This document shows positions 1 through 27,849 of a stretch of 64,000 bases of DNA, one piece after another (position 1 is the first letter of the stretch; each line of letters begins with the position of its first letter). The position numbers and the translations under genes were made by a program. The notes under the pieces were generated by a model, which worked only from the letters and a program-made list of their open reading frames with translations, did no database searches and was not told the DNA's origin. The stretch comes from an uncultured Pseudomonadota bacterium (GTDB taxonomy: Bacteria; Pseudomonadota; Gammaproteobacteria; Steroidobacterales; Steroidobacteraceae): assembly GCA_903832085.1 (NCBI GenBank), contig CAIKZZ010000006.1:62001-126000 (forward strand), given 5' to 3'.

Positions 1-684
1 GCCAAATTTCGCTATATGTTCGGCGGCAAAGGCTCCTGTCCCGTCGTCATCCGCACCGCAATGGGTGCCGGCATGAATATGGGCGCGCAGCATTCGCAGA
101 CCATCTATCCGTTCATTACCGCGGTTCCTGGCATGAAAGTGGTTATCCCATCAAATGCCTATGATGCCAAAGGGCTCATGATCACTGCACTGCGCGGTGA
201 TGATCCGGTCATGTTCTTCGAGCACAAGGCGCTCTACCCACGCAAAGGGGAAGTCCCGGATGGCGCCTACACAATCCCATTTGGCGAAGCGGCACTGGTG
301 CGTGAAGGCGAACACGTCACGGTAGTGGCGCTTGCCCGCATGGTTGTGTTTGCAGAAAAAGCGATCGATGCACTCGCGAAAGAAGGTATCACCTGCGATC
401 TCATTGATCCGCGCACCACGTCGCCCTTGGATGAAGAGACCATTTTGGAGAGCGTGGCCAGCACAGGGCGCCTCGTGGTCATCGATGAGTCACCCCCGCG
501 CTGCAGCGTGGCTGCTGACATCGCAGCCATGGTGGCCTCCAAAGGGTTTCGGTCATTGAAAGCGCCCATCGTGCAAGTGACGGCGCCCCATGCGCCGGTG
601 CCATTTGCGCGTGAACTTGAGCGTGCCTACGTGCCGAGTCCAGCGCGCATTGAGCAAGCGATCCGCGAAGTCCTTAAAGATTAA
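1..684 (+). CDS. 2-oxoacid dehydrogenase E1 component, beta subunit (5' truncated)
   Basis: The reading frame is open from base 1, so the gene starts left of the window; about 228 C-terminal residues are visible. The protein matches the beta subunit of heterotetrameric, thiamine-diphosphate-dependent E1 enzymes (pyruvate, acetoin or branched-chain 2-oxoacid dehydrogenases). Visible family signatures are MFGGKG, PSNAYDAKGL, FFEHKALY and DLIDPRTTSPLD, followed by the C-terminal transketolase domain. It is 24 bases upstream of an E2 gene and so is probably co-transcribed with it. A clear paralogue is encoded at 9733-10749 in this window. The true substrate is unknown, because E1 beta sequence alone does not separate pyruvate from acetoin or branched-chain oxoacids. 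The partner E1 alpha is presumably just outside the window. Confidence 0.9.
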   Translation, partial: AKFRYMFGGKGSCPVVIRTAMGAGMNMGAQHSQTIYPFITAVPGMKVVIPSNAYDAKGLMITALRGDDPVMFFEHKALYPRKGEVPDGAYTIPFGEAALVREGEHVTVVALARMVVFAEKAIDALAKEGITCDLIDPRTTSPLDEETILESVASTGRLVVIDESPPRCSVAADIAAMVASKGFRSLKAPIVQVTAPHAPVPFARELERAYVPSPARIEQAIREVLKD

Positions 685-708
685 ATCGACCAATTACAGG
701 AAGCGACC

Positions 709-1956
709 ATGAGCCAGCGCATCTTCCCGATCACAATGCCGAAGTGGGGCATTGAAATGCAGCAAGGGACCATCACGGAATGGCATTGTGCGGTGGGTCA
801 AGCGATTAACAAGGGCGACACCTTGCTTGAGGTGGAAACCGAAAAAATCGTTAACTCGGTCGAGGCTCCCGTGGCCGGCACCTTGCGGCGCATTCTGGCC
901 GACAAAGGCGCCACCGAAAATGTCGGTGCGTTGATTGCGCTGTTCGCTGACACCACGGTGCCCGAGGCGGAACTCGATGCGTTTGTCAGCACCTTCCGTC
1001 CCGCCAACACGAGCTTCGAGCCGGATGGTGACACCGGCACATCGGCCCCTGCGGCCCCAGCCTCTGCGTCCACCGAGAGCGCTGGCGACGGTGAGGCGCG
1101 TATCAGCCCCATTGCGCGGCGTATCGCAGAGCGCTTGGGAGTCGATATCACGCTCGTCAAGGGCACCGGCCGCAACGGCCGCGTCTCTAAGGAAGATGTC
1201 GAAGCCTACGCGGCCTCGGGTGGCAATAGTGCACCCGCGCCATCTCAGGCACCTGCTAGCGTGAACACGACGATCAGTACTGCCGGCGCGCCGCAGCGTG
1301 AGAAAATGACGTCCATGCGCGCAACCATAGCGAAGCGCCTGCTTGAGTCAAAACAGGGTATCCCACACTACCGGCTCGCGGCCGATGTGGACCTGACAGC
1401 ACTGATCGCAAAACGGTCAAACTTAAATACGCCATCAAGCAAAGTCTCGGTGAATGACCTACTGGTGCGCGCCTGCGCACTGGCTCTGATTCAGCACCCC
1501 ACCGTCAACGCACAGCTACAGGGCGACGAAGTGCTGCGCTACGCCCAGGCCGACATCTGTATCGCGGTTGCGACCGATAGCGGGCTCGTCACGCCCATCG
1601 TGCGCCAAGCCGAGACAAAAACAGCTGCCGCCATTGGTAACGAGATTGCATCGCTTGCGGAACGTGCACGTACCGGCAAGCTCAGCCGTGAGGACATCAC
1701 GGGTGGCACGTTCACGATCTCAAACCTCGGCATGTTTGGCATAGACCGCTTTGATGCCATCATCAACCCGCCCCAAGTTGCCATACTTGCGGTCGGTGCA
1801 GGCACTGACCGTGCGATCGTCAAAAATGGGCAGGTCATGATCGCCAAAGTAGCGACCCTGACATTAAGCTGCGACCATCGCGTAGTGGATGGAGCGGTGG
1901 GCGCCCAGTTCATGGCGACTTTGAAGGGACTGATCGAGTCGGCCACTACGCTGTAA
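709..1956 (+). CDS. Dihydrolipoamide acyltransferase (E2) of a 2-oxoacid dehydrogenase complex
   Basis: This is a 415-residue E2 core protein that takes the acyl group from E1 on a swinging lipoyl arm and passes it to CoA. The lipoyl domain is at about residues 1-80, with the lipoylated lysine at K46 in ETEKIVNS. An Ala/Pro-rich linker follows, then the E3-binding domain (about 128-165, SPIARRIAERLGVD) and a second linker. The catalytic acyltransferase domain ends in DHRVVDGAVGAQF, with active-site His about 390 and Asp about 394. The layout is the ordinary E2 layout, unlike AcoC-type E2s, which carry an alpha/beta hydrolase fold. AGGAAG sits just before the ATG. No E3 (dihydrolipoamide dehydrogenase) gene is in the window, so a shared cellular E3 is likely used. 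Confidence 0.93.
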   Translation: MSQRIFPITMPKWGIEMQQGTITEWHCAVGQAINKGDTLLEVETEKIVNSVEAPVAGTLRRILADKGATENVGALIALFADTTVPEAELDAFVSTFRPANTSFEPDGDTGTSAPAAPASASTESAGDGEARISPIARRIAERLGVDITLVKGTGRNGRVSKEDVEAYAASGGNSAPAPSQAPASVNTTISTAGAPQREKMTSMRATIAKRLLESKQGIPHYRLAADVDLTALIAKRSNLNTPSSKVSVNDLLVRACALALIQHPTVNAQLQGDEVLRYAQADICIAVATDSGLVTPIVRQAETKTAAAIGNEIASLAERARTGKLSREDITGGTFTISNLGMFGIDRFDAIINPPQVAILAVGAGTDRAIVKNGQVMIAKVATLTLSCDHRVVDGAVGAQFMATLKGLIESATTL

Positions 1957-1964
1957 ACACGGTT

Positions 1965-2008: not shown

Positions 2009-2953
2009 TCAAGCCAAGGCGTGACGTAGTGCCTGAGCTCCCTCCGCAAGCGCTGCACCAGAGGCGTCTATAAAACCTGCCATGCTGGCAAAACCGTGGG
2101 GTAGCTGTCTGTAGACATGCACGCTACAGCGCACGTGCGCGCTCGTTAGGCGCTGCCCATACTCAAGCGCCTCATCGTGATTGATATCGTAACCTGCCAC
2201 GAGCACTGTCGTTGCGGGTAACCCCGTCAAATCCCCCGCCAGCAAGGGAGAGAAGCGCGGGTCGTGGACGTCCCTCTCGGAGCGGGCGTACAACTCCACA
2301 AACCAGCGCATCGTGGTGGAATCCAAAAAATAGCCCTTGCCGTAGGTCGCGTGCGAAGGCCGCTGTTGTGACGAATCCAGCACCGGATAGATCAGCAGCT
2401 GATGACGAATGGCAGGATCAGGAGTGCACTGGCGCGCAACGGCTGCGGCCAAATTGCCTCCGGCAGAGTCGCCGGCAAGCGCGATGCGGCGCGCATCAAG
2501 GCGCGGATAAGACCCGCGTTTTAACCACTCCACCACGTGCACACAGTCATCAAATGCCGCGGGAAATTTATGCTCGGGCGCCAAGCGGTAATCCACTGCG
2601 AGCACCGCCGCCTCCGTCGCATTTGCCAGATAGCGACAGAGCGTGTCGTGCGTATCAAGCCCGCAGCTGGCCCACCCACCACCGTGAAAAAATGCCACCA
2701 CCGGTAACGGCCCCGCTGGGGCACCGAGCGGAATATACAGGCGGGTTGGAACCGCTGGCACTGCGCCACTCGCGGGTACAATAAGGTCCTGCACCTCAGC
2801 GACCTGCTCAAGAGGCAAGCCCAGTGCCGGGAGAGATTCGTTAATTTGGGCACGAACATCGGCTAGTGGCTGCGACTCCATTGGCGGCGCGCCACTCTCA
2901 GCACCGAGCTTCAGCAGTTGCGCCGCGCGCGCATCCAAGGCGACTGGCGTCAT
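2009..2953 (-). CDS. Alpha/beta hydrolase, hormone-sensitive-lipase family
   Basis: The protein is 314 residues long. It shows the HSL-family oxyanion motif HGGGW, the nucleophile elbow GDSAGG, the acid region around GYDINHDE and the catalytic histidine in LPHGF. DYRLAPEHKFPAA between the first two motifs is also typical. The family hydrolyses esters of small acyl or aryl substrates in the cytoplasm. I place the start at the ATG that overlaps the preceding stop codon as ATGA, two codons inside a possible GTG start at 2959. The gene follows the NTF2-like gene and probably shares its transcript. In this island it could cleave an ester or lactone intermediate; this is inferred from context only. 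Confidence 0.9.
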   Translation of the reverse strand: MTPVALDARAAQLLKLGAESGAPPMESQPLADVRAQINESLPALGLPLEQVAEVQDLIVPASGAVPAVPTRLYIPLGAPAGPLPVVAFFHGGGWASCGLDTHDTLCRYLANATEAAVLAVDYRLAPEHKFPAAFDDCVHVVEWLKRGSYPRLDARRIALAGDSAGGNLAAAVARQCTPDPAIRHQLLIYPVLDSSQQRPSHATYGKGYFLDSTTMRWFVELYARSERDVHDPRFSPLLAGDLTGLPATTVLVAGYDINHDEALEYGQRLTSAHVRCSVHVYRQLPHGFASMAGFIDASGAALAEGAQALRHALA

Positions 2954-3351
2954 CGACACATCACTTGCCGCACAAGATCGGTGTCGCAGTACTCAGTAAA
3001 GCTCACGATTTTGCCAGCCTCCACCCGCCAAACGAGGCAATACACGTTGTCGTAATCGACACCTGCTTTGGTAACACCATGACCCGTGCACTCGGTCACT
3101 ACCCAATCACCCGCAGCAATTACGTTGGTAACTTCCAGTACGACAGGTTGGCTTAAGTAGCTAAAGACGCGCGTGGCATACTCAACAAAGCCAGCCCGCG
3201 AGTGCCAGCGTCCCGAAATGGGAGTCGTGCCTGGCATCCAAAATTGCAGCGCTTCGTCGAAGCACGCAAAAAACTCGTCTGCCCGCCCTGCACGCGCCGC
3301 ATCAATCGCTGCTCGCACGCACTGAACACTGGTGGCAGATCGATCGTCCAT
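2950..3351 (-). CDS. NTF2-like (SnoaL/ketosteroid-isomerase-type) protein
   Basis: This 133-residue single-domain protein has the pattern of the NTF2/SnoaL fold: an N-terminal helix (AIDAARAGRADEFFACF), then FWMPGTTPISGRW, then beta strands ending in VWRVEAGKIVSFTEYCDT. Such proteins act as isomerases, cyclases, hydratases or binding proteins for hydrophobic rings, and the active site cannot be assigned from sequence. The gene sits 25 bases after a strong terminator for the upstream receptor gene and overlaps the hydrolase gene by 4 bases. It is therefore either expressed by read-through or from a promoter very close to the terminator. Confidence 0.8.
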   Translation of the reverse strand: MDDRSATSVQCVRAAIDAARAGRADEFFACFDEALQFWMPGTTPISGRWHSRAGFVEYATRVFSYLSQPVVLEVTNVIAAGDWVVTECTGHGVTKAGVDYDNVYCLVWRVEAGKIVSFTEYCDTDLVRQVMCR

Positions 3352-3415: not shown

Positions 3416-5977
3416 TTACTCGAAGCGGAAGTTTGCTGTCACACCATACGAACGCGGAGCGCCGTAGTTGGTGAAGTTCCACAAACCCGCCACTGGCAAT
3501 GCCGCGATGCGGTAGATCTTATTACCAACGTTGGCAATCCACGGCGTCACGCTCCAACGGCCCTTCTCATCATGATAGGCCGCCGACACGTTCATCACCG
3601 TACGTGCCTGCATCTGAGTATTGATGGTGTTGTAAACATCCGTCTCCGCCTCAGCCTGGTAGTTTGCATCGCCATGGAAAGTCACATGCGCGCCCGAAGC
3701 GAGCCCTAGGTCATAGCTCACACCGAGGTTTGCTTTCCACTTTGGCGAGAACGGCACCAGATACTTCGACAGCTGATTCGTTGGGCCCGGTGGCACATTG
3801 ATCAAATCAGGAATCTCGCCCGACAGGTACTCGTTATGCATGTAGTTAAGTGCTGCATCGACACGCAAGTCATGCGTTGGCACCCACACAGCCTCAAGAT
3901 CCAAGCCTGTCGCCCGTGACGCGCCGGTATTGACTGTGACTGTCTCCTGCTGGCCTGTGCCGTCGTTGGCCGTGTAGGCCGCGACGACTGCACGCTGCAG
4001 GTTCTTGTAGTCAGTCAAGTAAGCGGCCAAGTTCAAGCGCAAGGTGTTGCCGAGCAAGTCAGCCTTGTAGCCCAACTCCAAGTTGCTGTTGGTTTCTGGA
4101 TCGTATTTGCAACGAGTAACCGTGGCGCAGGTCTCAGAGAAGCCACCTGACAAGAAGCCCGTGGCATAGCTCAAGTACGCCATCTGACCTGCTGCTGGCT
4201 TGTAATCAAGCACCGCACGATAAGTCGTCTTGCTCCAATCCCCAGATGTATCAACCACCGTACCGAATGCCGACAATGGGAACGGCACGAGTACACCGCC
4301 ATTGAATGCAGATGGCGGAATACCAGCGCGGCTGATGAAGTTCGAATGCGCGTCGTAGCAATTTGTTGCTGTCGACTGCGCCTCGATATCAATCGCTGTT
4401 GTATGGGAATTGCAGGGTCCACCACCATCCACAAAGCGCAGGAAGTCTTTGTGATCTTGGCTGTAGCGCACGCCGGCAGTGAAGGTCACTTTATCGGTTA
4501 CGTTATATGTACCATCCCAAAACAGCGCCTTTTGCTTGCGTGACTGCTGTGTCCCTTGGAACTGCGCATCATTGAGCGCTTCCGTATTGAGATTCACATA
4601 GCCTTTCGCATTCACGAAGGACCCGGTTGTTGGATCGAAATTAGGCAGCAAGGCCACCAGGCCTACCGAGTAGTAAGCAAGGAAGTCAAACGAATCGTGG
4701 TTGTAGTTAGCGCCCGCCACGAAATTAAACGGCCCCTTAAACTTCGATGCGAAACGGAACTCCTGCTGCATGGTCCAGCGATCGGTGTTACGTGTCGAGT
4801 CAAATAGGGTCAGGAAGGCCTCACCCGTGTAGGTGCTCGGCAGCCGAGTCTGCTCCTGACGGTAACCGGTAATCGACTTAAATTCGCCGATGTCCGTATT
4901 GAATGTCTGGTGCAAATACAAACCCTGCACATCGACGCGATGGCCAGCACCTTCGTCGATATTCGGGTTGCCAGAAATCAGCGTCGAGAACACGTTTGAC
5001 TGATGTGACGCACCGATACCAGGGAAGCCTAACAAGGGCAGCAAATCCGTCGGTCCACTCTCGTTGACGCCAGGAGGCGAACCCGAGGTGTCATGCACAA
5101 TTTCAGTCATCAGCAAGGCTTGGTAGCTATCATTCGGGACCCAGAGCAACTTCGCTTTTGCAGCGAGCACGTTACGGCCGCCGATACGTGAGCCATTGCC
5201 ATAGACATTGGCGTTGATACTCGGATCAATCGGCGTGCCGGCTGGAATGCCGAACGCGCCCCACAACGGCACATTGCCTGGGAACGTCGCTGTGCGCTTG
5301 TCGTTGGTATAAAAACCTGCGTCATAGTCGTACATAGCGGCCATGCGAAACGCGATGGTGTCGCTGATCGGCAAGTTAATTGCGGTTTTGACGCTGGCGA
5401 GATTCGCGCCATTCTCGTACTGACCGTAGTTGAGTTCGGAATCGTTGTAATACTTGCCAAGCTCAGGCTTGCGCGACGTGATAGAAATCACGCCACCGGT
5501 GGTACTCGCACCAAAGAGCGTTCCCTGTGGGCCGCGATACACTTCGATTTGCTGCGTATCGAACAGACTCACGAACTGCGAGGTCACCTGCGCAAGCACG
5601 AAATCATCCATCAAAAAGCTGACCGGCGCATCCTGCGTCACGATCACGGTATTGGTACCAGTACCACGCATACCACCGCCAGTGGAGTTAAAGCCGGCGG
5701 AGTTCGACAGCACGAGACCTGGAGCGAGGGATGCCAATGCTTTGACATCATTGACATGGCTATTCGCCAAATCGGATTCACTGATCGCAGAAATGGTAAT
5801 AGGGACTGACTGCGATGCCACATCGCGCTTCGTACCCGTGACGATCACTTCTTCAAGAGAGCCCAACGAGGGGCCTGCTGACGGTTGATCCGCAGCGTGC
5901 GCCGCACTGCCGAGTGCTAGAGCCACTGAGAACGCCAACGGCGTGAGTCGCTTCAAAGAAAGGTGTCGTATATTCAT
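3416..5977 (-). CDS. TonB-dependent outer-membrane receptor
   Basis: The protein is 853 residues long from the ATG at 5977, which has AGGGGGA about 8 bases upstream; a longer frame to 6061 lacks such a site. The first about 28 residues are a signal peptide ending AHA. The plug domain begins near EEVIVTGTKRD, contains YRGPQGTLFGASTTGGVI, and is followed by a long beta-barrel with many aromatic girdle residues. The C-terminus is YGVTANFRFE. It belongs to the broad OmpR/CirA-type receptor group common in aquatic catabolic proteobacteria and imports bulky or scarce substrates using the proton gradient via TonB. It is divergent from a PQQ dehydrogenase gene, with a palindrome (6108-6125) between them. 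The substrate is unknown, but the surrounding genes suggest an organic compound rather than iron. Confidence 0.92.
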   Translation of the reverse strand: MNIRHLSLKRLTPLAFSVALALGSAAHAADQPSAGPSLGSLEEVIVTGTKRDVASQSVPITISAISESDLANSHVNDVKALASLAPGLVLSNSAGFNSTGGGMRGTGTNTVIVTQDAPVSFLMDDFVLAQVTSQFVSLFDTQQIEVYRGPQGTLFGASTTGGVISITSRKPELGKYYNDSELNYGQYENGANLASVKTAINLPISDTIAFRMAAMYDYDAGFYTNDKRTATFPGNVPLWGAFGIPAGTPIDPSINANVYGNGSRIGGRNVLAAKAKLLWVPNDSYQALLMTEIVHDTSGSPPGVNESGPTDLLPLLGFPGIGASHQSNVFSTLISGNPNIDEGAGHRVDVQGLYLHQTFNTDIGEFKSITGYRQEQTRLPSTYTGEAFLTLFDSTRNTDRWTMQQEFRFASKFKGPFNFVAGANYNHDSFDFLAYYSVGLVALLPNFDPTTGSFVNAKGYVNLNTEALNDAQFQGTQQSRKQKALFWDGTYNVTDKVTFTAGVRYSQDHKDFLRFVDGGGPCNSHTTAIDIEAQSTATNCYDAHSNFISRAGIPPSAFNGGVLVPFPLSAFGTVVDTSGDWSKTTYRAVLDYKPAAGQMAYLSYATGFLSGGFSETCATVTRCKYDPETNSNLELGYKADLLGNTLRLNLAAYLTDYKNLQRAVVAAYTANDGTGQQETVTVNTGASRATGLDLEAVWVPTHDLRVDAALNYMHNEYLSGEIPDLINVPPGPTNQLSKYLVPFSPKWKANLGVSYDLGLASGAHVTFHGDANYQAEAETDVYNTINTQMQARTVMNVSAAYHDEKGRWSVTPWIANVGNKIYRIAALPVAGLWNFTNYGAPRSYGVTANFRFE

Positions 5978-6107
5978 CTGCACAAATCCCCCTAAAAGAA
6001 TAGCGGTAATGGAGAGTCGCCTATCGCTAGCTCTGGCCAACTGCATACAATCACAGCGCATTTGTATTTATCGCTTCCCGTCAACCGTACACCCTAGAGC
6101 GCATAAA

Positions 6108-6125
6108 AATCAATCATGACTGTTT
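6108..6125. promoter_or_regulatory. Palindromic operator-like site C (shared motif)
   Basis: The sequence AATCAATCATGACTGTTT matches, at 15 of 18 positions, the near-perfect palindrome found at 19046-19063 (read on the other strand as AAACAGGCATGACTGTTT). It lies between the divergent TonB-dependent receptor and PQQ dehydrogenase genes, in T/A-rich DNA. It is probably the binding site of a dimeric repressor such as a TetR- or MarR-family protein. Confidence 0.6.
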
Positions 6126-6234: not shown

Positions 6235-8112
6235 ATGACACACTCTGATCCCCACACGGGTTCTCACACGATGCGATCTGTTCGCGTCATCGCCCTCCTG
6301 ATGGCGACGGTATTCATCGCCTCCGCTGCGTGGTCAGCGGATCGAACACCAGACCAAATTTATAAAGGCTTGTGCGCGGCCTGTCATGACGGCGGTGTGC
6401 CACGCGCACCCCAAGCCGTGGGCTTTCAGATGCTAGGCCCCAAGACGATTCTCGCGGCGCTTGAGTCCGGCGTTATGAAAGCCCAAGGCGACACACTCAG
6501 TGCCAGCGAACGCCGTGCGATTGCTGAGTTCCTCGCAGGAGCCGCGCTACCAGACCCGACGACCAGCCCAGGTCCGCGCTGTGATTTGGCGCACTCGCGG
6601 TTTGATGTCTCTAAACCACCCGCACTCGCTGGCTGGGGCATGACCTTGGAGGGGACGCGCTACGCGGCGCATCAGGCTGCCAAGCTCAGCGTCGCTGACC
6701 TACCCCATCTGGCAGTGAAGTGGGCGTTTGCGTTTCCGGGCGCGAGTCGCGCGCGCTCACAACCCACTGTAGGCGCGGGGGCTTTGTATTTAGGCAGTCA
6801 GGACGGAACGGTCTATGCACTTGATTTTGATACGGGGTGCGTGCGCTGGACGTTCCAAGCAGACAGCGAGGTGCGCGCGGGCGTCACCTTGGAACCGTGG
6901 AAAGCGGGTGATCAACACGCGAAACCCAGGCTGTACGTGGGCGATTTCGGCGGCAACGCCTATGCGCTCGATGCACGTACGGGAACACTGCTGTGGAAAA
7001 CACGCGTCGATGCACACCCACGTCTGACCATCACGGGGTCCCCACGCTATTACGAGGGTCGCCTGTACGTACCCATGTCATCCAATGAGTGGGCCGCAGC
7101 AGCGGATCCGGCCTACGAGTGCTGTACGTTTCGAGGCGGCGTCGCGGCGCTAGATGCAACGACCGGCAGCGTTGTCTGGCGCAGTTACGTGATCCCCGAA
7201 ACGCCGGCAGCTACAGGTGAGACGAATACTGCCGGCGCACGCCGCTTCCATCCCGCGGGCGCACCCGTATGGAACTCGCCCACGATTGACGTGAAGCGAC
7301 ACCGCCTCTATGTCGGCTCGGGAGAGGCATATACCTCACCTGCCGCCCCGCAGAGCGACGCCGTGACAGCGTTTGATCTAGCAAGCGGCAAGCTGCTTTG
7401 GACCTACCAGTCCATTCCGCACGATGCTTGGAATATGGCGTGCTTTATCGGTGGCGGGCCCAATTGCCCGGTGGAGAATGGACCGGATCTTGATATTGGC
7501 GCACCACCGATCTTGCATCGGCTTAGTAATGGTAGAGACGTGCTGCTCGTGGGCGAAAAATCGGCTGATATTTTTTCCCTCGACCCAGACTCCGGCAAAC
7601 TGCTTTGGCGCGTTAAATACGGCCGCGGCGGATTTGCCGGTGGTGTGCATTGGGGCATGGCGGCCGATGCCACAACGCTCTATGCACCTAATGCCGATAC
7701 CACTTTTTTAGGCACCGAAAAAGGCGAACCAAAGCCTGGCCTCTACGCGCTTGAGCCTGCATCCGGCGCCATCAAATGGTTTACTCCAGCACCGGACGTG
7801 TGCCCGGCCGATGCTAAGCCCGCCTGCGATCGCGGCTATTCAGCACCGCCGACAGTCATCGATGGCGCTGTCATACAGCCATCTTTTGATGGCTGGCTAC
7901 GCGCCTATGCCACACGCGATGGCAAGCTATTGTGGGCATTTAATACGGCACAAGAATTCACCACCGTATCGGGAACAAAGGGTCATGGCGGCTCGATCGA
8001 AAGCGCTGGTGCGATCGTCGCTGACGGCCGTGTCGCTGTGAACTCGGGTTACTTGTTTGGCGGGCGCATGCCCGGCAATGTGCTGCTCGTTTTCTCTGTG
8101 AACGGAAAATAA
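6235..8112 (+). CDS. Periplasmic cytochrome c-PQQ dehydrogenase (polyvinyl-alcohol-dehydrogenase-like)
   Basis: This 625-residue quinohaemoprotein has a signal peptide (start at 6235 is favoured by GAGGA about 10 bases upstream; ATG 6271 is an alternative). A cytochrome c domain follows with the haem motif C47-AAC-H51, then an eight-bladed PQQ propeller with repeats such as GTVYALD, GNAYALD and GVAALD. A vicinal Cys-Cys pair (YECCTF) is present, as in PQQ alcohol dehydrogenases. The N-terminal haem domain is the layout of polyvinyl-alcohol dehydrogenases; methanol and ethanol dehydrogenases either lack it or have it at the C-terminus. It should oxidise a secondary or primary alcohol in the periplasm and pass electrons to a c-type cytochrome. 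It is followed 22 bases later by a P450 gene. Confidence 0.9.
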   Translation: MTHSDPHTGSHTMRSVRVIALLMATVFIASAAWSADRTPDQIYKGLCAACHDGGVPRAPQAVGFQMLGPKTILAALESGVMKAQGDTLSASERRAIAEFLAGAALPDPTTSPGPRCDLAHSRFDVSKPPALAGWGMTLEGTRYAAHQAAKLSVADLPHLAVKWAFAFPGASRARSQPTVGAGALYLGSQDGTVYALDFDTGCVRWTFQADSEVRAGVTLEPWKAGDQHAKPRLYVGDFGGNAYALDARTGTLLWKTRVDAHPRLTITGSPRYYEGRLYVPMSSNEWAAAADPAYECCTFRGGVAALDATTGSVVWRSYVIPETPAATGETNTAGARRFHPAGAPVWNSPTIDVKRHRLYVGSGEAYTSPAAPQSDAVTAFDLASGKLLWTYQSIPHDAWNMACFIGGGPNCPVENGPDLDIGAPPILHRLSNGRDVLLVGEKSADIFSLDPDSGKLLWRVKYGRGGFAGGVHWGMAADATTLYAPNADTTFLGTEKGEPKPGLYALEPASGAIKWFTPAPDVCPADAKPACDRGYSAPPTVIDGAVIQPSFDGWLRAYATRDGKLLWAFNTAQEFTTVSGTKGHGGSIESAGAIVADGRVAVNSGYLFGGRMPGNVLLVFSVNGK

Positions 8113-10749: not shown

Positions 10750-10750
10750 T

Positions 10751-19045: not shown

Positions 19046-19063
19046 AAACAGTCATGCCTGTTT
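19046..19063. promoter_or_regulatory. Palindromic operator-like site B (best 18-base form of the shared motif)
   Basis: AAACAGTCATGCCTGTTT is palindromic except at one pair of positions (7 and 12). It is flanked by A-runs on the left and T-runs on the right. It lies between the divergent GST operon and a Rieske oxygenase gene, 64 bases before the Rieske start codon and overlapping the -35 region of its proposed promoter. This layout suits a repressor. Confidence 0.65.
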
Positions 19064-19089: not shown

Positions 19090-19126
19090 CAGACGCGCAC
19101 CGCCAGCGCTCGAGGAGAGTAAGAGT

Positions 19127-20341: not shown

Positions 20342-20375
20342 ATAGCCCTTCTGCTCTGCCTAAGGCGTGCATTCC

Positions 20376-21806
20376 GTGAGTCGCGGCATCACTGGGTTTG
20401 GCGCCTACGTGCCGCGCTGGCGGCTCGATAGACAGGCTGTGAAACAATCGCTCAGCTGGCTGTCCCAAGGAAAAAGTAAGGCACTCGGTACTCGCAGTTA
20501 CTGTAACTGGGACGAAGATGCGCTCACTCTGGGCGTGGAAGCCGCCCGTGATTGCCTCTCGAGCGTCTCCGCTCAGCCAGACGCCATTTGGCTCGCATCA
20601 ACATCGCTACCGTTTGCTGATCGCAGCAATGCAGGACTACTCGCTGCCGCCCTCGATGTAGCGCCCGCCTGCCAAACACTCGACAGCGCCGGCTCGCTGC
20701 GTGCAGCCACGAGTGCGCTGATCAGCGCACTTTCAAACAGCAGTTGCTCACTGATTGTTGGCAGCGATGCCCGTAAAGCAAGGCCTGCGAGCCCACAAGA
20801 ACTCTCCTTTGGTCATGCAGCAGCAGCAGTGCTGGTCGGCAACAATCAAGTTGTTGCAGAGCACTTAGGCTCGCATTCGGTCGCCATCGATTTTGTAGAT
20901 CACTACAGAGCAACCCATGCTGAATTTGACTATGCGCTGGAAGAACGCTGGGTCAGAGACGAGGGCTATCAAAAAATAGTGCCCCCAGCCATCGCGGCGC
21001 TGCTGACTCGCTGCGCCGTCAGCCCGAGTCAGATCACACATCTACTGATGCCCACAGGGCCTGCGATCGCGACACGACTTGCCAAGGACTGCGGCATTGC
21101 AGCGACAGCGGTCGTAGATCCTCTGCATACCGAGATCGGCGACACCGGCACTGGACACCCGTTGCTCATGCTTTGCCATACACTCGAAACTGCTGCCGCT
21201 GGCGCGCTGATATTACTCATCGGCTTTGGTCAGGGCGTGGATGCATTGCTCTTTCGTGTGCCTACCAAGAAGCCATCGTCGCGTCCACACCGCGGCGTGA
21301 GCAGCCACTTAACGGCCGGTAAGACCGACACGATGTACACACGTTATTTGGCGCATCAAGGCTTGCTGGATGTGGACTTTGGCATGCGCGCTGAGCGCGA
21401 TGCACGGACCGCGCAAAGCGCCGCATATCGCCGCCACCGTGATCTGACCGCATTTGTGGGCGGCCGCTGCTCGCAATGCAAGACCTTGCAATTTCCGTAC
21501 TCAAGAGTCTGCGTAAACCCTGATTGCCGCCTCACTGATACCCAAACAGCAGAGCGCATCGCCGACGTGACGGGCGCCGTTAAATCCTTTACAGAAGACT
21601 GGCTCGCCTATAGCCCAAATCCCCCACTGGCTTATGGCAACGTCAACATTGGCGATGGTGGCAATGTGTTCATGGAATTTGCTGACGTAGAACCTGGCGT
21701 ATTGAGCGTCGGTCTACCGGTACGCATGGTCTTTCGAATCAAAGATGTGGACCGGGTCCGCGGCTTTCATCGTTATTTTTGGAAAGCTACTCCGGTGGGA
21801 AGCTAA
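20376..21806 (+). CDS. HMG-CoA-synthase/KAS III-like protein fused to a DUF35 zinc-ribbon/OB-fold domain
   Basis: The start is taken at GTG 20376, which has AAGG 10 bases upstream; GTG 20367 is too close to it. The 476-residue product has a thiolase-fold N-terminal region (about 1-295, beginning ITGFGAYVPRWRLDR) like archaeal and PhlA-type HMG-CoA synthases. A C-terminal DUF35 unit follows, with zinc ligands C365, C368, C379 and C384 and an OB-fold. The position where HMG-CoA synthases carry the nucleophilic Cys (NAC-type motif) reads LDSAGSLRA, so the Cys seems lost. Such proteins form complexes with thiolases and bring the acyl-CoA to them. The thiolase gene follows two bases later. A scaffold or partner role, rather than independent catalysis, is my inference. 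Confidence 0.8.
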   Translation: MSRGITGFGAYVPRWRLDRQAVKQSLSWLSQGKSKALGTRSYCNWDEDALTLGVEAARDCLSSVSAQPDAIWLASTSLPFADRSNAGLLAAALDVAPACQTLDSAGSLRAATSALISALSNSSCSLIVGSDARKARPASPQELSFGHAAAAVLVGNNQVVAEHLGSHSVAIDFVDHYRATHAEFDYALEERWVRDEGYQKIVPPAIAALLTRCAVSPSQITHLLMPTGPAIATRLAKDCGIAATAVVDPLHTEIGDTGTGHPLLMLCHTLETAAAGALILLIGFGQGVDALLFRVPTKKPSSRPHRGVSSHLTAGKTDTMYTRYLAHQGLLDVDFGMRAERDARTAQSAAYRRHRDLTAFVGGRCSQCKTLQFPYSRVCVNPDCRLTDTQTAERIADVTGAVKSFTEDWLAYSPNPPLAYGNVNIGDGGNVFMEFADVEPGVLSVGLPVRMVFRIKDVDRVRGFHRYFWKATPVGS

Positions 21807-21808
21807 TT

Positions 21809-23023
21809 ATGGCAACCGGCATTCGCGACAAAGTCGCAATCATCGGCATGGGCTGTGCACGTTTTGGTGAACGCTGGGACGCAAGCCCAGACGATCTGAT
21901 GCTGGAAGCATTTACCGAGGCCTCCGCAGATGCGGGCATCGACCGCGATCAGATTGAAGCGGCATGGCTAGGCGTGTTCTATCAGGAACAAAGCACGTCA
22001 AAATCCGGATTACCACTGTCACTCGCCTTGCGCTTACCGAACACGCCCGTGACGCGTGTCGAAAACCTCTGCGCGACGGGAACCGAGGCACTACGCGGTG
22101 CGGTCTATGCCGTTGCTTCAGGCGCGGTTGATATTGCGCTTGCCATGGGCATGGAAAAGCTCAAGGACACAGGCTTTGCGGGCCTGCCGGAGCGCACCAA
22201 AGGCACCTTCGAGGATCAGTGGCAGCCAGGGTTCACCCCGCCAGGCGCCTTCGCACAACTGGCAAGCGCCTATGCTGCGCGTCACAGCATCACGCGTGAC
22301 GATCTCAAACGTGCCATGGCGCATGTGTCATGGAAAAGCCATGAAAACGCTGCCGATAATCCGAAAGCGCACCTGCGTAACCGCATTACGATCGAACAAA
22401 TACTGAACGCACCCATCATCGCGGCACCACTAGGCACCTTTGACTGCTGCGGAGTCAGTGATGGCGCCGCCTGCGCCATCGTCACCACGCCTGAAATCGC
22501 TGCAAACCTTGCGCGCAATCAAGCCCGACGCGACATCGTCACGGTAAAAGCCCTCGCATTAGCATCCTCCAACGGCGTCGAAATGGGCCACGCAAGCTGG
22601 GATGGTAGCTACACCCCCACAACGCGACTGGCCGCTGCCCGCGCCTATAAAGAGGCCGGCATCAATGATCCGCGCAAGGCCTTAAGCCTCATTGAGGTGC
22701 ACGACTGCTTCTCAATTACTGAGCTGGTCCTAATGGAAGACTTAGGCTTGTCCGATCCTGGTCGTGCGGTCAACGATATCCTTGATGGCCGTTATGACCG
22801 GACTGGGGCAATTCCGTGCCAAGTCGATGGCGGTCTCAAGTGTTTTGGTCACCCGGTCGGCGCATCTGGACTGCGCATGGCCTATGAAATCTATACACAG
22901 CTACTAGGCAGAGCGGGCGCTAGGCAGCTAAAAAATCCCACCCTTGGCCTAACCCATAATTTAGGTGGTATTCCGAATCGGAACGTAGCTAGTATTACTG
23001 TCCTTGGACTTAACTCGATCTAA
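21809..23023 (+). CDS. Thiolase, SCP2/PhlC-like
   Basis: The 404-residue protein has the thiolase layout of the SCP2-type (non-degradative sequence group): nucleophile C88 in ENLCATGTEAL, then GMEKLKDTGF, VHDCFSITELVLMEDLGL and the C-terminal GGLKCFGHPVGASG with the second catalytic Cys/His, then LTHNLGG. Members cleave or form beta-ketoacyl-CoA or do retro-aldol cleavage together with DUF35 partners, as in steroid side-chain degradation (Ltp2/ChsH2 type), or C-acylation in PhlACB. The ATG follows the fusion gene stop by two bases. It probably works as a complex with that fusion protein. Confidence 0.9.
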   Translation: MATGIRDKVAIIGMGCARFGERWDASPDDLMLEAFTEASADAGIDRDQIEAAWLGVFYQEQSTSKSGLPLSLALRLPNTPVTRVENLCATGTEALRGAVYAVASGAVDIALAMGMEKLKDTGFAGLPERTKGTFEDQWQPGFTPPGAFAQLASAYAARHSITRDDLKRAMAHVSWKSHENAADNPKAHLRNRITIEQILNAPIIAAPLGTFDCCGVSDGAACAIVTTPEIAANLARNQARRDIVTVKALALASSNGVEMGHASWDGSYTPTTRLAAARAYKEAGINDPRKALSLIEVHDCFSITELVLMEDLGLSDPGRAVNDILDGRYDRTGAIPCQVDGGLKCFGHPVGASGLRMAYEIYTQLLGRAGARQLKNPTLGLTHNLGGIPNRNVASITVLGLNSI

Positions 23024-23035: not shown

Positions 23036-23605
23036 ATGGTTGACACGCTATTCACACGTACACCTCGTGACAAGTTGCCCGCAGACTTTCAGCCAGCATG
23101 GGACATGCTCAATAAACTAACGGGCGACGCAACTTTTGTGGAGGTTTTTGCGCAAAATCCAGCCATGCTCGAATTTGTGATGGCTAAGTTTTATATGCCG
23201 GTGTTCTTTGGCGGCAATGTTGATCAACGCTACAAGCAGCTGGCTCGGCTGAAGCTATCGCTAATCCATGGCTGCCTGACCTGCAATAAACAAAATGTTC
23301 CCGGTGCACTCGGCGCAGGAATCTCAGAAGCGCAGGTTGCAGCAATGGATACCTTCGAAACAGGTCCATTCACCGACGCAGATAAAGCAGTTATTGCGTT
23401 CGCGGCAGAAGTCGCTTTGACGAATATGACCGGTGAGATGACACCCGCTCTATTTAAACGCTTACGTCAGCATTTTTCGGAAGCTGACATCCTTGAGCTC
23501 GGCACTGCAATGGCCATCATCTCTGGAATGGCGAAACTCTCATTCGTACTGAACTTAGTCGAAAAGGAAAGCTACTGCCCGTTCACGCCTAAAGCCGCGG
23601 CGTGA
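23036..23605 (+). CDS. Carboxymuconolactone decarboxylase/AhpD-like protein
   Basis: The 189-residue helical protein has the AhpD/CMD core with a redox CxxC pair, C80 and C83, in IHGCLTCNKQNV, and a second half LELGTAMAIISGMAKLSFVLNLV. The CxxC favours an AhpD-like peroxidase or disulfide reductase over true gamma-carboxymuconolactone decarboxylase, which lacks it. AAAGGAG precedes the ATG. It is the last gene of the plus-strand Rieske-fusion-thiolase operon, and its 3' end overlaps the convergent dctA-like gene by 34 bases. Its role in the pathway is unknown; repair of oxidised cofactors or a small decarboxylation are options. Confidence 0.82.
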   Translation: MVDTLFTRTPRDKLPADFQPAWDMLNKLTGDATFVEVFAQNPAMLEFVMAKFYMPVFFGGNVDQRYKQLARLKLSLIHGCLTCNKQNVPGALGAGISEAQVAAMDTFETGPFTDADKAVIAFAAEVALTNMTGEMTPALFKRLRQHFSEADILELGTAMAIISGMAKLSFVLNLVEKESYCPFTPKAAA

Positions 23606-24840
23606 GGCTGAGACGCGCTGCCAAGCTCGCCCTCCCAAGAGGCCACCACTGCGGTTGCGATTGAGTTTCCAACCACATTGGTGGCGCTGCGGCCCATATC
23701 CAGTAGCTGGTCCACCGCCAAGATCAGGGCAAGCCCCGCCTCTGGAATCTTGAAGTAGGCGAGCGTCGCGGCAATCACCACGAGCGAAGCGCGTGGCACC
23801 CCAGCCATGCCCTTGCTAGTCACCATCAGCAGCAACAGCATTGTGAGCTGCTGACTCACTGAAAGATGGATGCCATATGCCTGCGCAATGAATAACGTTG
23901 CAAAGGTGCAGTACATCATGGAGCCATCCAGATTAAACGAGTACCCGAGCGGCAGCACAAAGCTTGCAATGCGCTCAGATACGCCAAAACGTTCAAGCTG
24001 CTGCAGCGTTTTCGGATACGCAGCCTCCGAGGTCGCCGTCGAAAAAGCTAGCAACACAGGCTCACGAATCGCGCGCATCAACTCAAGAATACGACCGCGC
24101 AGCACCACGTAACCTAGCAGTATCAGCACGCACCATAACGTCGCTAGCGCCAAGTAAAATCCACCAATAAAGCGACCATACGTCATGAGCATCCCAAGAC
24201 CCTGAGCACTCACTGTTGCGGTAATCGCCGCAAATACCGCGACAGGCGCAGTCAACATCACATAGCTGGTAACCTTTAGCATGACGTGCGCGACTTCATC
24301 GAGCAGCGTTAACAACCGTTCGCCGCCCTTGCCAAGGTTGGCCAAGGCCACGCCAAAAAACCCAGCGAACACCACAATCTGCAAAATCTCATTGTTAGCC
24401 ATGGCCTCAGCAAGCGAACGAGGCACTAGATGAGTGATGAACTCATGCAAGGACATGGTCCCCGAATTAACCACTGCGCTCGCGCCATCTGACGGAATGG
24501 GTAAATGTAGCGCAGCACCGGGCTGCAACAGCGTCACCATCACGATGCCAAGCACCAGCGACAATAGTGACCCCAACAAAAACCATGCCAGAGTACGCAC
24601 CCCCACCCCACCCAGCGAGGATGAGCTCCCCATCTTTGCGACGCCAACCACCAAGGTTGAAAACACCAGCGGAGCGATGATCATCCGAATGAGTCGCAAA
24701 AACACATCGGTCACCAGCGATAGGTACCCGGCCAGTGCTTTTAGCGTCGCGGGGTCGGTCACAGTGGCATGGCACACGGCGCCAGCGATCACGCCAAAGA
24801 TCATGGCGAACAAGATGTAGAGCGTGACGTGTCGCTTCAT
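23572..24840 (-). CDS. Dicarboxylate/amino acid:cation symporter (DAACS family)
   Basis: The start is taken at ATG 24840, which has GGAGGGG close upstream and begins MKRHVTLYILFAMIFG; the longer frame to 24936 adds a non-homologous tail. The 422-residue membrane protein shows the DctA/GltP elevator fold: RMIIAPLVFSTLVVGVA, the HP1 serine region FSTATSEAAYPKTL, the substrate and cation motifs GYSFNLDGSMMY and VDQLLDMGRSATNVVGN. It imports C4-dicarboxylates or related acidic substrates with Na+ or H+. It is divergent from the second Rieske oxygenase, with a palindrome between them, so an acidic pathway substrate or intermediate may be its cargo. Confidence 0.9.
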   Translation of the reverse strand: MKRHVTLYILFAMIFGVIAGAVCHATVTDPATLKALAGYLSLVTDVFLRLIRMIIAPLVFSTLVVGVAKMGSSSSLGGVGVRTLAWFLLGSLLSLVLGIVMVTLLQPGAALHLPIPSDGASAVVNSGTMSLHEFITHLVPRSLAEAMANNEILQIVVFAGFFGVALANLGKGGERLLTLLDEVAHVMLKVTSYVMLTAPVAVFAAITATVSAQGLGMLMTYGRFIGGFYLALATLWCVLILLGYVVLRGRILELMRAIREPVLLAFSTATSEAAYPKTLQQLERFGVSERIASFVLPLGYSFNLDGSMMYCTFATLFIAQAYGIHLSVSQQLTMLLLLMVTSKGMAGVPRASLVVIAATLAYFKIPEAGLALILAVDQLLDMGRSATNVVGNSIATAVVASWEGELGSASQPHAAALGVNGQ

Positions 24841-24937
24841 AAAACCCCTCCAACGATGCGCCACTGTGGCAATTAGTGCAGTGCAACGCAATGGGCAGCC
24901 CCGACTCAGAGGACCGACCAGTCTGGCCAAATACACA

Positions 24938-24959
24938 AAACAGTCACTTCTGACTGTTT
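24938..24959. promoter_or_regulatory. Palindromic operator-like site A (perfect inverted repeat)
   Basis: A perfect 9-base inverted repeat, AAACAGTCA and TGACTGTTT, with a 4-base spacer CTTC, lies between the divergent dctA-like and Rieske oxygenase genes. The arms share the AAACAG/CTGTTT ends of site B, but the centre is 4 bases longer. The right arm overlaps the -35 of the proposed Rieske promoter. Confidence 0.65.
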
Positions 24960-25015: not shown

Positions 25016-26374
25016 ATGTTCGACTATAAACAGCCCTACGTCCTCAACCCTTCCGCCCCCGCCGACTCGCTGGAAGCGAAACGCCCAGCCTTCGACAATG
25101 GCACGACGGTATTAGATCCCTCGCGCTACTACTCGCGTGAGTTCATGGAGAAGGAGTGGCGTCACTTGTGGCCGCGCGTCTGGTTACTCGCGGGCGTCAC
25201 CTCTGACGTGCCGGAAGAAGGCGATTACACAGTGTTTGATATCGGCGCTGAAAGCGTCATTACAGTCCGTCAGGCAAATGGCTCCCTGAAATCGTTCTTT
25301 AACGTATGCCCCCACCGCGGTAATCCCATTGCGCTGAACGAGCGCGGCAGTGTGTCCAAGTTTACCTGCGCGTTCCATGCATGGAGCTTCTGCTTGGATG
25401 GCAAACTCGAGTGCATCACTGACGAGCAAACCTTTCATCCAGACCTCGTCAGGCACCGACCCGGCTTAAGCGAAGTACGCACCGATACCATCGGCGGACT
25501 CATTTTTGTCAACCTTGATGGTAAAGCACCGCCACTCGCTGACTGGATTGGCCTGCCGAAGGGCTACATCGAGAACTATGAAATCGACAAGATGCATGTC
25601 GTTCGCCATGTGCGCACCGAGTGGCGCGCTAACTGGAAGACAGGACTCGATGCCTTCATTGAAACCTATCACTTGGCATTTATTCATCCGCAGACCCAAA
25701 CGGTCATGGAAGATTTCTCGCAGTACGATCTGTATCCGAATGGATTCCAGCGGATGATTGTGCCGTTGTGCGTGAAATCACATCGGGTCGCAGACCAAAC
25801 CACTGTGGATGCAGGACTGCAATTCATGATGCAAGACGCAGGCATGAAGCCTGATGAATTCAATGGAACTGCTAGCGAAGTGCGGCCGGCTGTACAACGC
25901 TCCAAGCGTGAGCGAGCGAAACGCTTAGGACTCAAACACTACGAAAAATTTACCGATGGCCAGCTCACAGACAGCTGGGCGACGGGCTTTTTCCCGAATA
26001 CGCAGATTGGTATGCATCCAGAAGGCGTGTTCATCATGCGCTTCATTCCGCATCCAACGAACCCGGAACTCTATTTTTACGACAACATGACACTGTTCCG
26101 TAATGTGGATGATCCAACCTACTTTGTGCCGGCATGGATGGGCTTACCCAAAGACACAGATGTCTCAGGCCGAACGCGCCCAAATATCGAGCGCTTTGCG
26201 GCCGGTGTACGCGCCGACTTAGGCGAGGTGTTGGATCAAGACGTAGACTTGGTGGAAGCCGTACAACGTGGCGTACGCTCACGTGGCTTCAGGGGTCCGC
26301 TATGGAGTGAGCAAGAGATGCGTCTGCGGCACGTCCACAGCGAGATTGATCGCTACATCAACGGCGAGAAATAG
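25016..26374 (+). CDS. Rieske non-haem iron oxygenase, alpha subunit (second)
   Basis: From ATG 25016 (AGAGG seven bases upstream) the protein is 452 residues. Rieske ligands are C98, H100, C118 and H121 (CPHRG, CAFHAW); the mononuclear-iron motif is DAFIETYHLAFIH, with bridging D212 and His219/His224. The Rieske ligand numbering is the same as in the protein at 19127, but the catalytic domain is about 48 residues longer and the sequences differ widely. It resembles the aromatic-ring-hydroxylating alpha subunits of unknown substrate common in aquatic steroid or terpenoid degraders. It is a single-gene unit ended by a strong terminator. The start is chosen over an upstream frame (to 24824) that would run through the promoter. 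Confidence 0.92.
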   Translation: MFDYKQPYVLNPSAPADSLEAKRPAFDNGTTVLDPSRYYSREFMEKEWRHLWPRVWLLAGVTSDVPEEGDYTVFDIGAESVITVRQANGSLKSFFNVCPHRGNPIALNERGSVSKFTCAFHAWSFCLDGKLECITDEQTFHPDLVRHRPGLSEVRTDTIGGLIFVNLDGKAPPLADWIGLPKGYIENYEIDKMHVVRHVRTEWRANWKTGLDAFIETYHLAFIHPQTQTVMEDFSQYDLYPNGFQRMIVPLCVKSHRVADQTTVDAGLQFMMQDAGMKPDEFNGTASEVRPAVQRSKRERAKRLGLKHYEKFTDGQLTDSWATGFFPNTQIGMHPEGVFIMRFIPHPTNPELYFYDNMTLFRNVDDPTYFVPAWMGLPKDTDVSGRTRPNIERFAAGVRADLGEVLDQDVDLVEAVQRGVRSRGFRGPLWSEQEMRLRHVHSEIDRYINGEK

Positions 26375-27849
26375 CCTGTATCGGCTCGGCGACCAACAGT
26401 CGCCGAGCCGTTTTTTAACCCCATAGCATGGGTAATCTCAGGAATCAGGTCAGTGCGGTGATGGGTTGCCATCACCAACTGCATCCCCCCCTGCGCCAAG
26501 TGCGATAACAACGCGCGCATGTGTACGCGCCAAACAGTATCAAGACCCGTCAAAGGCTCATCCAGCAGCAACGCCTCAGGACGACGCACAATCGCGCGCG
26601 CAAAGAGCGCGAGTCGGCGTTGGCCATACGACAATCCTTTCAAGGCACGCTCCGAATTGCATACCAAGCCCACCGTCTGTAACGCCTGAGCGGCAAGCGA
26701 GCGCTCAGCGGCTGTGGCAGGAAAATCCAGCCCTACACTGGCACGAATGCCACTGACCACAAGCTCGAGCAGCGTCACGTCGTCCAAATACTCGGCCTGC
26801 AATTCTGGAGAGACTAGACCTATACGCCGCCGCCACTGCTCAATATGGACACCAGGCGCATGACCTCGCCGCTCAAGCACACCACCTAGTGCAATGGGTA
26901 GATCGCCATACAAGCACCGTAGCAAGCTCGACTTACCACTGCCATTAGCACCCACTATGGCCCAGTTTTCATGCGGGCCAATTACCCAATTCACGCCACA
27001 CAGTACAGGCCGGTAATCGCGGTATAACGAGGCATTACGCAAAGTCACTAATGGCATGCTGCGGTGCTTGTGGTTTTTGACTATAGCCACCGTTGCGAGC
27101 CGCGGCTTAACTGGTGACTCCTGCAACGATCGCGTCACGAGCGCACAGCGGGCTCCATCGTGATGCACTCGCCCGGATTTCAACACCACGATCCGGGTAA
27201 ATACTCGTGGGATATCCTCGGCACGGTGTCCGGTCACAATGACCGTGATACGCGCTTTGGAAAGTCGGCGTAACTCGCGATCCAATGTACGCCGTGACGA
27301 ATCATCAAGACCGTTAAACGGCTCATCCAACAACAAAAGCCCAGGCTGCGCCGCCAGCGCTCGCGCGAGCAGAACACGACGACGTTCACCATAAGACAAT
27401 GTTAAAAACAGCCGCCGTCGCAAGTGCCACACATCCCAGCGCTGCAATAATTTAGTCACGCGGCGGCGTTCGATCGCGCTTAATTTAACGATGGGACGAT
27501 CGCCACCATGACAACCGGTACCGACCACCCGCTGCACTGAAAAATTCCAGTCATAGCGCAAATATTTATCTTGCCGTTCACCACTCACAAGCGCGATTTT
27601 CGAGAGAATATCGCTCTTTTCTAGCACTTTTCCACGCGCATCCGTATAGGTGATCTGGCCACGACCGTCCGGGTCAGGCCACCGCTCGCCTACCAGTATT
27701 TTTAATAGCTGCGACTTGCCAGCACCATTGACGCCCAACAAGGCGGTATTCGAGGAAGCCGCGAACTCGAGAGAGATATTTTTGAGAATCGCGTTGTCGT
27801 TCAGCATCAACCGGACGTGAGTCAACCGAGCACCAATCGCGCAACTCAA
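26353..27849 (-). CDS. Tandem ABC ATPase, ModF/photorepair PhrA-like
   Basis: The product has about 498 residues with two ABC nucleotide-binding domains and no membrane segment. Domain 1 has Walker A GVNGAGKS, signature LSYGERRRV and Walker B LLLLDEPFNGLD; domain 2 has GANGSGKS, LSYGQRRLA and ALLLDEPLTGLD. This is the ModF layout (E. coli ModF, also called photorepair protein). The start is uncertain: TTG 27849 overlaps the upstream stop as TTGA, and TTG 27864 is an alternative; no ATG lies before the first domain. The stop overlaps the convergent Rieske gene by 22 bases. ModF is linked to molybdate transport by gene neighbourhood, which fits the molybdenum-cofactor operon 1.4 kb away, but its function is not established. 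Confidence 0.85.
   Translation of the reverse strand: MSCAIGARLTHVRLMLNDNAILKNISLEFAASSNTALLGVNGAGKSQLLKILVGERWPDPDGRGQITYTDARGKVLEKSDILSKIALVSGERQDKYLRYDWNFSVQRVVGTGCHGGDRPIVKLSAIERRRVTKLLQRWDVWHLRRRLFLTLSYGERRRVLLARALAAQPGLLLLDEPFNGLDDSSRRTLDRELRRLSKARITVIVTGHRAEDIPRVFTRIVVLKSGRVHHDGARCALVTRSLQESPVKPRLATVAIVKNHKHRSMPLVTLRNASLYRDYRPVLCGVNWVIGPHENWAIVGANGSGKSSLLRCLYGDLPIALGGVLERRGHAPGVHIEQWRRRIGLVSPELQAEYLDDVTLLELVVSGIRASVGLDFPATAAERSLAAQALQTVGLVCNSERALKGLSYGQRRLALFARAIVRRPEALLLDEPLTGLDTVWRVHMRALLSHLAQGGMQLVMATHHRTDLIPEITHAMGLKNGSATVGRRADTGYFSPLM
26382..26416 (+). terminator. Rho-independent terminator of the second Rieske gene
   Basis: A perfect 12-base stem (CGGCTCGGCGAC / GTCGCCGAGCCG) with loop CAACA is followed by TTTTTTA. 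It starts 8 bases after the Rieske stop. It lies inside the 3' end of the coding sequence of the convergent ABC ATPase gene, so the same bases encode that protein's C-terminus. Confidence 0.92.

Follow-up and report, generated by a model that had tools for sequence, protein, structure and literature searches.

Several described enzymes combine a thiolase with a DUF35 protein. In the benzoylsuccinyl-CoA thiolase BbsAB and the steroid aldolase Ltp2-ChsH2, a thiolase-fold protein with a DUF35 partner carries out a catabolic C-C cleavage, and we know of no module in either that resembles 3-hydroxy-3-methylglutaryl-CoA synthase (HMGS). All three modules are found in the archaeal acetoacetyl-CoA thiolase/HMGS/DUF35 complex (PDB 6esq), and the PhlACB-like thiolase/HMGS/DUF35 module is best known from antibiotic synthesis. 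PhlACB, the 2,4-diacetylphloroglucinol acyltransferase (PDB 5m3k, 9skh), is reported to join a dead HMGS-like protein, PhlA, which is without the catalytic Cys and Glu of HMG-CoA synthase, to a DUF35-like protein and a thiolase that is the only active site, since only PhlC residues act (PMC6392133). Here we describe a module of this kind within a gene cluster of a Steroidobacteraceae genome (G000; 2.65 Mb in 48 contigs, estimated 98.9% complete), part of which lies in a stretch of 64,000 nucleotides (bases 62001-126000 of contig C6; hereafter the window). Judged by its gene content, the cluster would form a TetR-linked regulon that probably degrades one class of hydrophobic compounds, itself probably alicyclic (terpenoid-like), by Rieske hydroxylation and two C-C cleavages.

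The module is encoded on the plus strand by a fusion of an HMGS-like and a DUF35 part in one chain (HMGS35; 20367..21806) and by an SCP2-type thiolase (21779..23023), which matches NCBIfam PRK06157 with 651 bits (cut-off 403). The HMGS part scores 151 bits against an NCBIfam cut-off of 244, and the DUF35 part, in which the four-Cys set is present, matches OB_ChsH2_C at 9e-5, just under the Pfam cut-off. Among solved structures, HMGS35 is closest to PhlA (8e-20), followed by the archaeal HMGS (3e-16), the archaeal DUF35 protein (6esq_E, 9e-5) and PhlB (0.0046). In all 23 aligned HMGS35 sequences, including that of the window, the HMG-CoA synthase residues Cys (C114) and Glu (E82; archaeal numbering) are replaced, the Cys by L (11), Q (10), R (1) or T (1) and the Glu by T (22) or S (1). 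We therefore reject HMG-CoA synthesis by HMGS35. The thiolase, on the other hand, keeps its catalytic Cys (ENLCATG) and His (GHPVGASG). Because HMGS35 has lost both residues, as has PhlA in a complex in which only PhlC residues act, it should by analogy serve as a scaffold, with the thiolase as the enzyme. The module differs from the archaeal complex in this loss, and from PhlACB in having the HMGS and DUF35 parts in one chain, in surroundings that look catabolic and in a thiolase with a closer likeness to the archaeal enzyme and to SCP2 thiolases; its best structure match is 6esq (1.5e-51), and the benzoylsuccinyl-CoA thiolase subunit 7pxp is also among the matches.

The likeness to PhlA, the closest solved structure to HMGS35, might suggest that the cluster makes a secondary metabolite, as PhlACB makes an antibiotic, and P450 and SnoaL-like proteins, both encoded here, are common in clusters of that kind. 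We consider such a biosynthetic role very improbable: no polyketide or peptide synthase was found among the cluster genes scanned, and the acyl-CoA dehydrogenase, the CoA ligase, the two E1 sets and the TonB receptor indicate uptake and breakdown. On plasmids of Niveispirillum, Azoarcus, Variovorax, Novosphingobium and Sphingobium, too, the HMGS35-thiolase pair has further CoA-pathway genes as neighbours. The gene set would give the PhlACB-like module a catabolic home.

Promoters of the cluster are marked by an 18-bp palindrome, AAACAGTCATGACTGTTT, which occurs in six places in the genome at three or fewer mismatches, whereas its reversed pattern occurs in none at the same threshold. In the window there are two matches against 0.00 expected (100 shuffles). 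Four of the six sites lie at cluster promoters: before the gene of a short-chain dehydrogenase/reductase (SDR2), before E1 alpha A, between the TonB-dependent receptor (3416..6061, minus strand; TonB_dep_Rec 1.7e-32) and a pyrroloquinoline quinone (PQQ) dehydrogenase (site at 6108..6125, 16/18 positions), and between the genes of a glutathione S-transferase-like protein (GST3) and the Rieske oxygenase RO1 (site at 19046..19063, 17/18). The fifth (C40:21651) lies on another contig, between an acyl-CoA ligase operon and a gene for a dienoyl-CoA-reductase-like SDR. The sixth, on contig C11, sits within a coding open reading frame, presumably pheT, and is probably a chance occurrence. Weaker or re-spaced copies mark two further promoters, those of E1 alpha B (11758..11775, 14/18) and of RO2, where half-sites with a 4-base spacer lie between the gene of a DctA-like symporter and RO2 (24938..24959); copies before E1 alpha B recur in two related genomes, G020 (14/18) and G116 (15/18). 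Of the repeat families of the window, D1 is the operator itself; the others inspected fall within coding sequence and resemble chance matches.

A reading of the window made from its letters alone (the sequence-only reading) had called the region a palindrome-marked catabolic island. The marking is indeed far above chance, both in window shuffles and genome-wide, and the genes do make up a coherent unit, but in this genome that unit is a regulon spread over two loci, most likely of about 30 genes. Pfam and NCBIfam scans of the proteins of the window, of the upstream region and of C40 placed the families named in that reading where it had put them, some by weak matches. They also showed, with frames read across the window's edge, that the cluster runs about 8 kb further upstream, in the order enoyl-CoA hydratase and TetR (minus strand), SDR1, an aminotransferase-like protein, SDR2, ThuA, RO3, E1 alpha and E1 beta. 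On C40, the ligase operon comprises acyl-CoA ligase, a vicinal oxygen chelate (VOC) protein, PQQ dehydrogenase, a second VOC protein and an SDR, and both VOC proteins match Glyoxalase_4. Genes of the C40 type (ligase, VOC, SDR3) sit within the main cluster in G116, where nearly all parts stand side by side over about 40 kb, operators included, a layout in keeping with the inclusion of C40 in the regulon on the strength of its operator.

The palindrome accompanies the cluster well beyond this genome. We sampled 150 genomes of the family, 33 with and 117 without RO1 (RO1 and RO3 called at E 1e-100, HMGS35 at E 1e-20). Operator sites (three or fewer mismatches) number 142 in the RO1-positive genomes, each of which has at least one, and 22 in the others, which is background level; the reversed-pattern control gives 8 and 28 sites, respectively. 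Among 157 loci found with RO1, 80 named loci from Gamma- and Alphaproteobacteria were kept, 78 of them usable for an operator count in which the best 18-mer before a gene had to agree at 14 or more of 18 positions. By this measure an operator precedes RO1 in 61 of the 78 loci (none in letter shuffles), GST3 in 31/35 (a gap often shared with RO1), the TonB receptor in 22/29, SDR2 in 6/12 and ABM2 in 4/6, and is absent before the operon-internal genes HMGS35 (0/60), thiolase (0/57), E1 beta (0/11) and RO3 (0/8). The palindrome thus accompanies the cluster across two classes of Proteobacteria. A -10-like hexamer starts 20-21 bases past it in 35 of 65 loci and never at offsets 0-13 or 22-39 on the same side; this fixed distance centres the palindrome near -41 from the predicted transcription start, a position that suits an activator, or a repressor covering the -35 region. 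The sole regulator gene among the cluster genes scanned is that of TetR, which is present in 33/33 RO1-positive and 5/117 other genomes, and whose stretch AGLSRGAM, which we take to be the recognition helix, hardly varies from class to class, and the same holds for the operator core. This constancy and the presence of TetR in every RO1-positive genome support, without proving it, a link between the two: on the basis of linkage and co-occurrence, the linked TetR most likely reads the palindrome.

RO1 and RO3 were found in the same 33 of the 150 genomes, RO3 being present in 0/117 elsewhere (p about 6e-34, a value inflated by shared ancestry); RO2 was found in 32/33 RO1-positive and 4/117 RO1-negative genomes, and HMGS35-like proteins in 32/33 and 8/117, respectively. 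The PQQ dehydrogenase was uninformative as a marker, because related paralogues occur in 74/150 genomes. Parts that never co-occur would have refuted the sequence-only reading; the outcome is the opposite, supporting the view that the parts make up one coherent unit. The set is patchy within the window's genus: counting G000, 5 of the 14 genomes sampled there have RO1. In the 80 named loci (RO1 80 by construction), where matches were counted within about 10 kb of RO1 and contig ends cut many loci, we found HMGS35 in 60, acyl-CoA dehydrogenase in 58, thiolase in 57, RO2 and AhpD in 37 each, GST3 and Rieske ferredoxin in 36 each, ABM2 in 34, the PQQ dehydrogenase in 32, E2 in 18, E1 beta A in 14, ThuA in 13, RO3, TetR and SDR2 in 12 each and E1 alpha A in 11. 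Acyl-CoA ligase and CoA-transferase III genes also recur there, in 31 and 24 loci by clustering of open reading frames and in at least 38 and at least 47 by tblastn; an operator precedes the CoA-transferase in 0/47 loci. RO1 adjoins HMGS35 and thiolase in most gammaproteobacterial loci, and RO3 adjoins E1/E2 in the loci that show both, an arrangement suggestive of two "hydroxylate, then cleave" modules.

Several observations weigh against a single regulon with one pathway. HMGS35 was not matched within about 10 kb in 20 of the 80 RO1 loci, mostly of sphingomonads. The RO1 match of one genome, G136, is 61% identical and comes without an HMGS35 match, and may be a paralogue. The CoA-transferase that neighbours RO1 elsewhere is without an orthologue in G000 (best 34%). 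Operators are few before ligase (4/38), PQQ dehydrogenase (4/23), RO2 (6/36) and acyl-CoA dehydrogenase (9/58), some of these genes sitting inside operons; counts are also weak for E1 alpha (3/10) and AhpD (1/36), and the TetR-SDR1 gap of G000 holds no operator scoring 13 or more. Finally, four genomes (G094, G105, G114 and G142) carry TetR and RO2 without RO1 and RO3, and of these genes G134 has just TetR; the parts are therefore modular. In these four, TetR and SDR1 go together with a ligase, a distant thiolase (28-30% to that of the window) lies nearby and RO2 is elsewhere in the genome or locus, which suggests that modules are exchangeable for related substrates. It is accordingly possible, although we tend to doubt it, that several short pathways for related substrates, rather than one linear pathway, stand under one regulator; the two E1 pairs and two PQQ enzymes of G000, and the second RO1-like gene of 8 of the 33 RO1-positive genomes, would fit such an arrangement. 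It sits less easily with RO1 and RO3, which are never apart in the 150 genomes at the thresholds used, with the caveat of G136. The variant loci L185, L187, L188 and L190, with TetR, SDR1, ligase and distant thiolase and without RO1 and RO3, have operator copies of 14-15/18.

The three Rieske oxygenases are RO3, upstream of the window, RO1 (19127..20341, plus strand) and RO2 (25016..26374, plus strand). The start of RO1 was placed at ATG 19127, which follows the operator, rather than at TTG 19019 (the reference for the RO1 search starts at 19124, one codon before the ATG, which leaves the matches unaffected), and that of RO2 at ATG 25016. All three show the CxH...CxxH Rieske motif and a His-His iron site and match PF00355 and PF00848, as do the alpha-only oxygenases GbcA and CntA, and no beta subunit was found in the scanned neighbours. 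In NCBIfam the best match is GbcA, but with scores of 119-132 of 670 bits, far under the cut-off, and the genes here are tied to CoA and thiolase genes. The Rieske ligands are also present in the ferredoxin (14741..15154, plus strand; Rieske 5.4e-18).

The family assignment of these oxygenases bears on a substrate that the name of the host family, Steroidobacteraceae, readily brings to mind, namely a steroid or sterol, degraded through its side chain or by an alternative ring route into the 9,10-seco system. Cleavage of steroid side chains is a known role of DUF35/thiolase pairs, Sphingobium Tom plasmids carry HMGS35-thiolase pairs, and KshA_C (PF19298) is enriched in RO1-positive genomes (8/33 against 5/117, p=0.0014 without kinship correction). 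Yet RO1-3 match PF00848, not KshA_C, which has 0 matches in G000 at E 1e-20 and is without a match in 25 of the 33 RO1-positive genomes. Canonical ring cleavage via KshA is unlikely because no KshA was found in G000, and a steroid or sterol pathway of any of these kinds seems to us unlikely.

The second cleavage system would be a complex with TPP (thiamine diphosphate) as cofactor. Acetoin and pyruvate dehydrogenase complexes share with it E1 alpha, E1 beta and E2 components that bear TPP and lipoyl motifs; here, unlike in those complexes, there are two E1 pairs per E2, and the scan of the cluster genes found no E3, no search for one having been made elsewhere in the genome. The sequence-only reading had counted two E1 beta, one E1 alpha and one E2; the families stand, but since a second E1 alpha and the start of an E1 beta were found upstream of the window, the real tally is two E1 alpha/beta pairs and one E2. 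In set A, E1 alpha falls under the pyruvate dehydrogenase cut-off (319 of 394 bits), and E1 beta, whose gene follows E1 alpha and starts about 330-450 bases before the window (the predicted start codon is approximate), has its 3' part at 1..684 (plus strand; Transketolase_C, Transket_pyr). It is followed by the E2 acyltransferase (709..1956, plus strand; 2-oxoacid_dh 2.7e-80; lipoyl motif ETEK, HxxxDG). Set B is on the minus strand, with E1 beta at 9733..10830 (PRK09212, 331 bits, cut-off 321) and E1 alpha at 10751..11719 (E1_dh 1.2e-81). The TPP motif is present in both E1 alphas. In a motif check, catalytic or cofactor motifs were found in RO1, RO2, RO3, ferredoxin, PQQ enzyme, E1 alphas, E2 and thiolase.

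From the observed families, motifs, shared operator and co-occurrence we propose a pathway whose catalytic steps, order, substrate class and regulator are predictions. The substrate would be taken up by the TonB receptor, and an alcohol oxidised by the periplasmic PQQ/cytochrome c enzyme (6235..8112, plus strand; PQQ_2 1e-28, Cytochrome_CBB3 3.9e-7), which has a signal-like N-terminus and an N-terminal cytochrome c motif (CAACH). The genome has two PQQ enzymes; PqqC gave no match in G000, with control genomes equally silent. The C40-encoded ligase may then carry out CoA activation, and the acyl-CoA dehydrogenase (15177..16337, minus strand; Pfam/NCBIfam match) would introduce an alpha,beta double bond. 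Hydroxylation would fall to the three alpha-only Rieske oxygenases, served by the Rieske ferredoxin. The RO1 product would be oxidised to a beta-dicarbonyl and cut by the thiolase held on the dead HMGS-DUF35 scaffold, while SDR2 and RO3 may form an acyloin or a 2-oxo group for cleavage to acyl-CoA by the TPP-dependent E1/E2 complex. No described pathway with this combination was known to the sequence-only reading, and searches of one open-access library for combinations of the parts likewise found none, which is not proof. Tentatively, the pathway may be aerobic, not yet described and directed at a widespread polycyclic lipid (resembling hopanoids, carotenoids or other terpenoids), with Rieske hydroxylation preparing two different cleavages, of an acyloin by E1/E2 and of a beta-dicarbonyl by the thiolase on its dead scaffold, under one operator conserved in two proteobacterial classes; the polycyclic-lipid class is itself a guess.

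Lignin-type or other aromatic dimers are another conceivable substrate, with GSTs cleaving ethers or handling quinones. The GST, ABM and AhpD proteins would suit them, sphingomonads also have RO1, and a genome of the Steroidobacteraceae is reported to have taken up lignin-derived 13C (PMC9296663). No typical ring-cleavage dioxygenase was found among the genes scanned, although the Glyoxalase_4 superfamily of the C40 VOC proteins includes dioxygenases; GST3 is present in 36/80 RO1 loci, nearly all gammaproteobacterial, and the available part of PMC12997858 names no PQQ enzyme in the dimer pathways it treats. We regard aromatic dimers as quite unlikely and favour an alicyclic, terpenoid-like substrate.

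The carriers, as given by record titles, include Steroidobacteraceae, Woeseiaceae, Novosphingobium, Sphingobium, Erythrobacter, Niveispirillum, Hyphomonadaceae and Eilatimonas. The recurrence of some 30 genes with a shared operator in Steroidobacteraceae, Woeseiaceae, sphingomonads and other Proteobacteria points to a common natural substrate missed by current annotation, and culturable carriers, for example Niveispirillum lacus 1-14 (L140), make the question testable. A single locus of that isolate holds RO1, RO2, RO3, E1/E2, HMGS35, the thiolase and a PQQ enzyme, and Novosphingobium sp. AAP83 has RO1, RO3, E1/E2, SDR2 and TetR. To judge by isolate names, many of the record titles suggest lake, sediment and marine sources. 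Three bins (L090, L092 and L101) titled Klebsiella pneumoniae or Janthinobacterium lividum have the cluster at Steroidobacteraceae-like identity, and their titles look wrong.

Among the other genes of the window, the cytochrome P450 (8135..9391, plus strand; p450 3.7e-24; GRHHCIG), the E1 B pair and the small ABM-domain protein ABM1 (9405..9707, minus strand; ABM 8.9e-12) are common to G020 and G116 (62-84% identity); they look like an optional module because each is rare, with a match in just 1 of the 80 loci. ABM2 (14388..14690, minus strand) is an ABM-like protein just under the Pfam cut-off (2.9e-4), and the AhpD-like protein (23036..23605, plus strand; CMD 1.9e-8) has a CLTC motif. The DctA-like symporter (23572..24936, minus strand; SDF 2.1e-110) is not conserved with the gene set. 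It and the SnoaL-like protein (2950..3351, minus strand; Pfam match) appear in neither the 80-locus count nor one of 42 loci, in which PhzF was matched in 3 and the alpha/beta hydrolase (Abhydrolase_3; 2009..2959, minus strand) in 1; in the 80 loci PhzF was matched in 3, and PnuC and the kinase in 1 each. The hydrolase and SnoaL genes are probably local additions. The PnuC-type transporter and APH-type kinase genes lie at 11865-13333, between the E1 B genes and PhzF, and are also present in G020; the pair presumably resembles a thiamine or nucleoside salvage pair.

Upstream of the window, the aminotransferase-like pyridoxal phosphate protein (L002 13815-14993), which adjoins SDR1, has a twin-arginine-like N-terminus. 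The three GST-like genes, all on the minus strand with Pfam matches, are GST1 (16403..17326), GST2 (17323..18036) and GST3 (18073..18993). GST1 and GST3 extend C-terminally about 90 residues past their GST domains, without a Pfam match; these ends are conserved across 25 aligned sequences (20 GST3 and 5 GST1, the window's two included), and the extension is possibly an undescribed domain.

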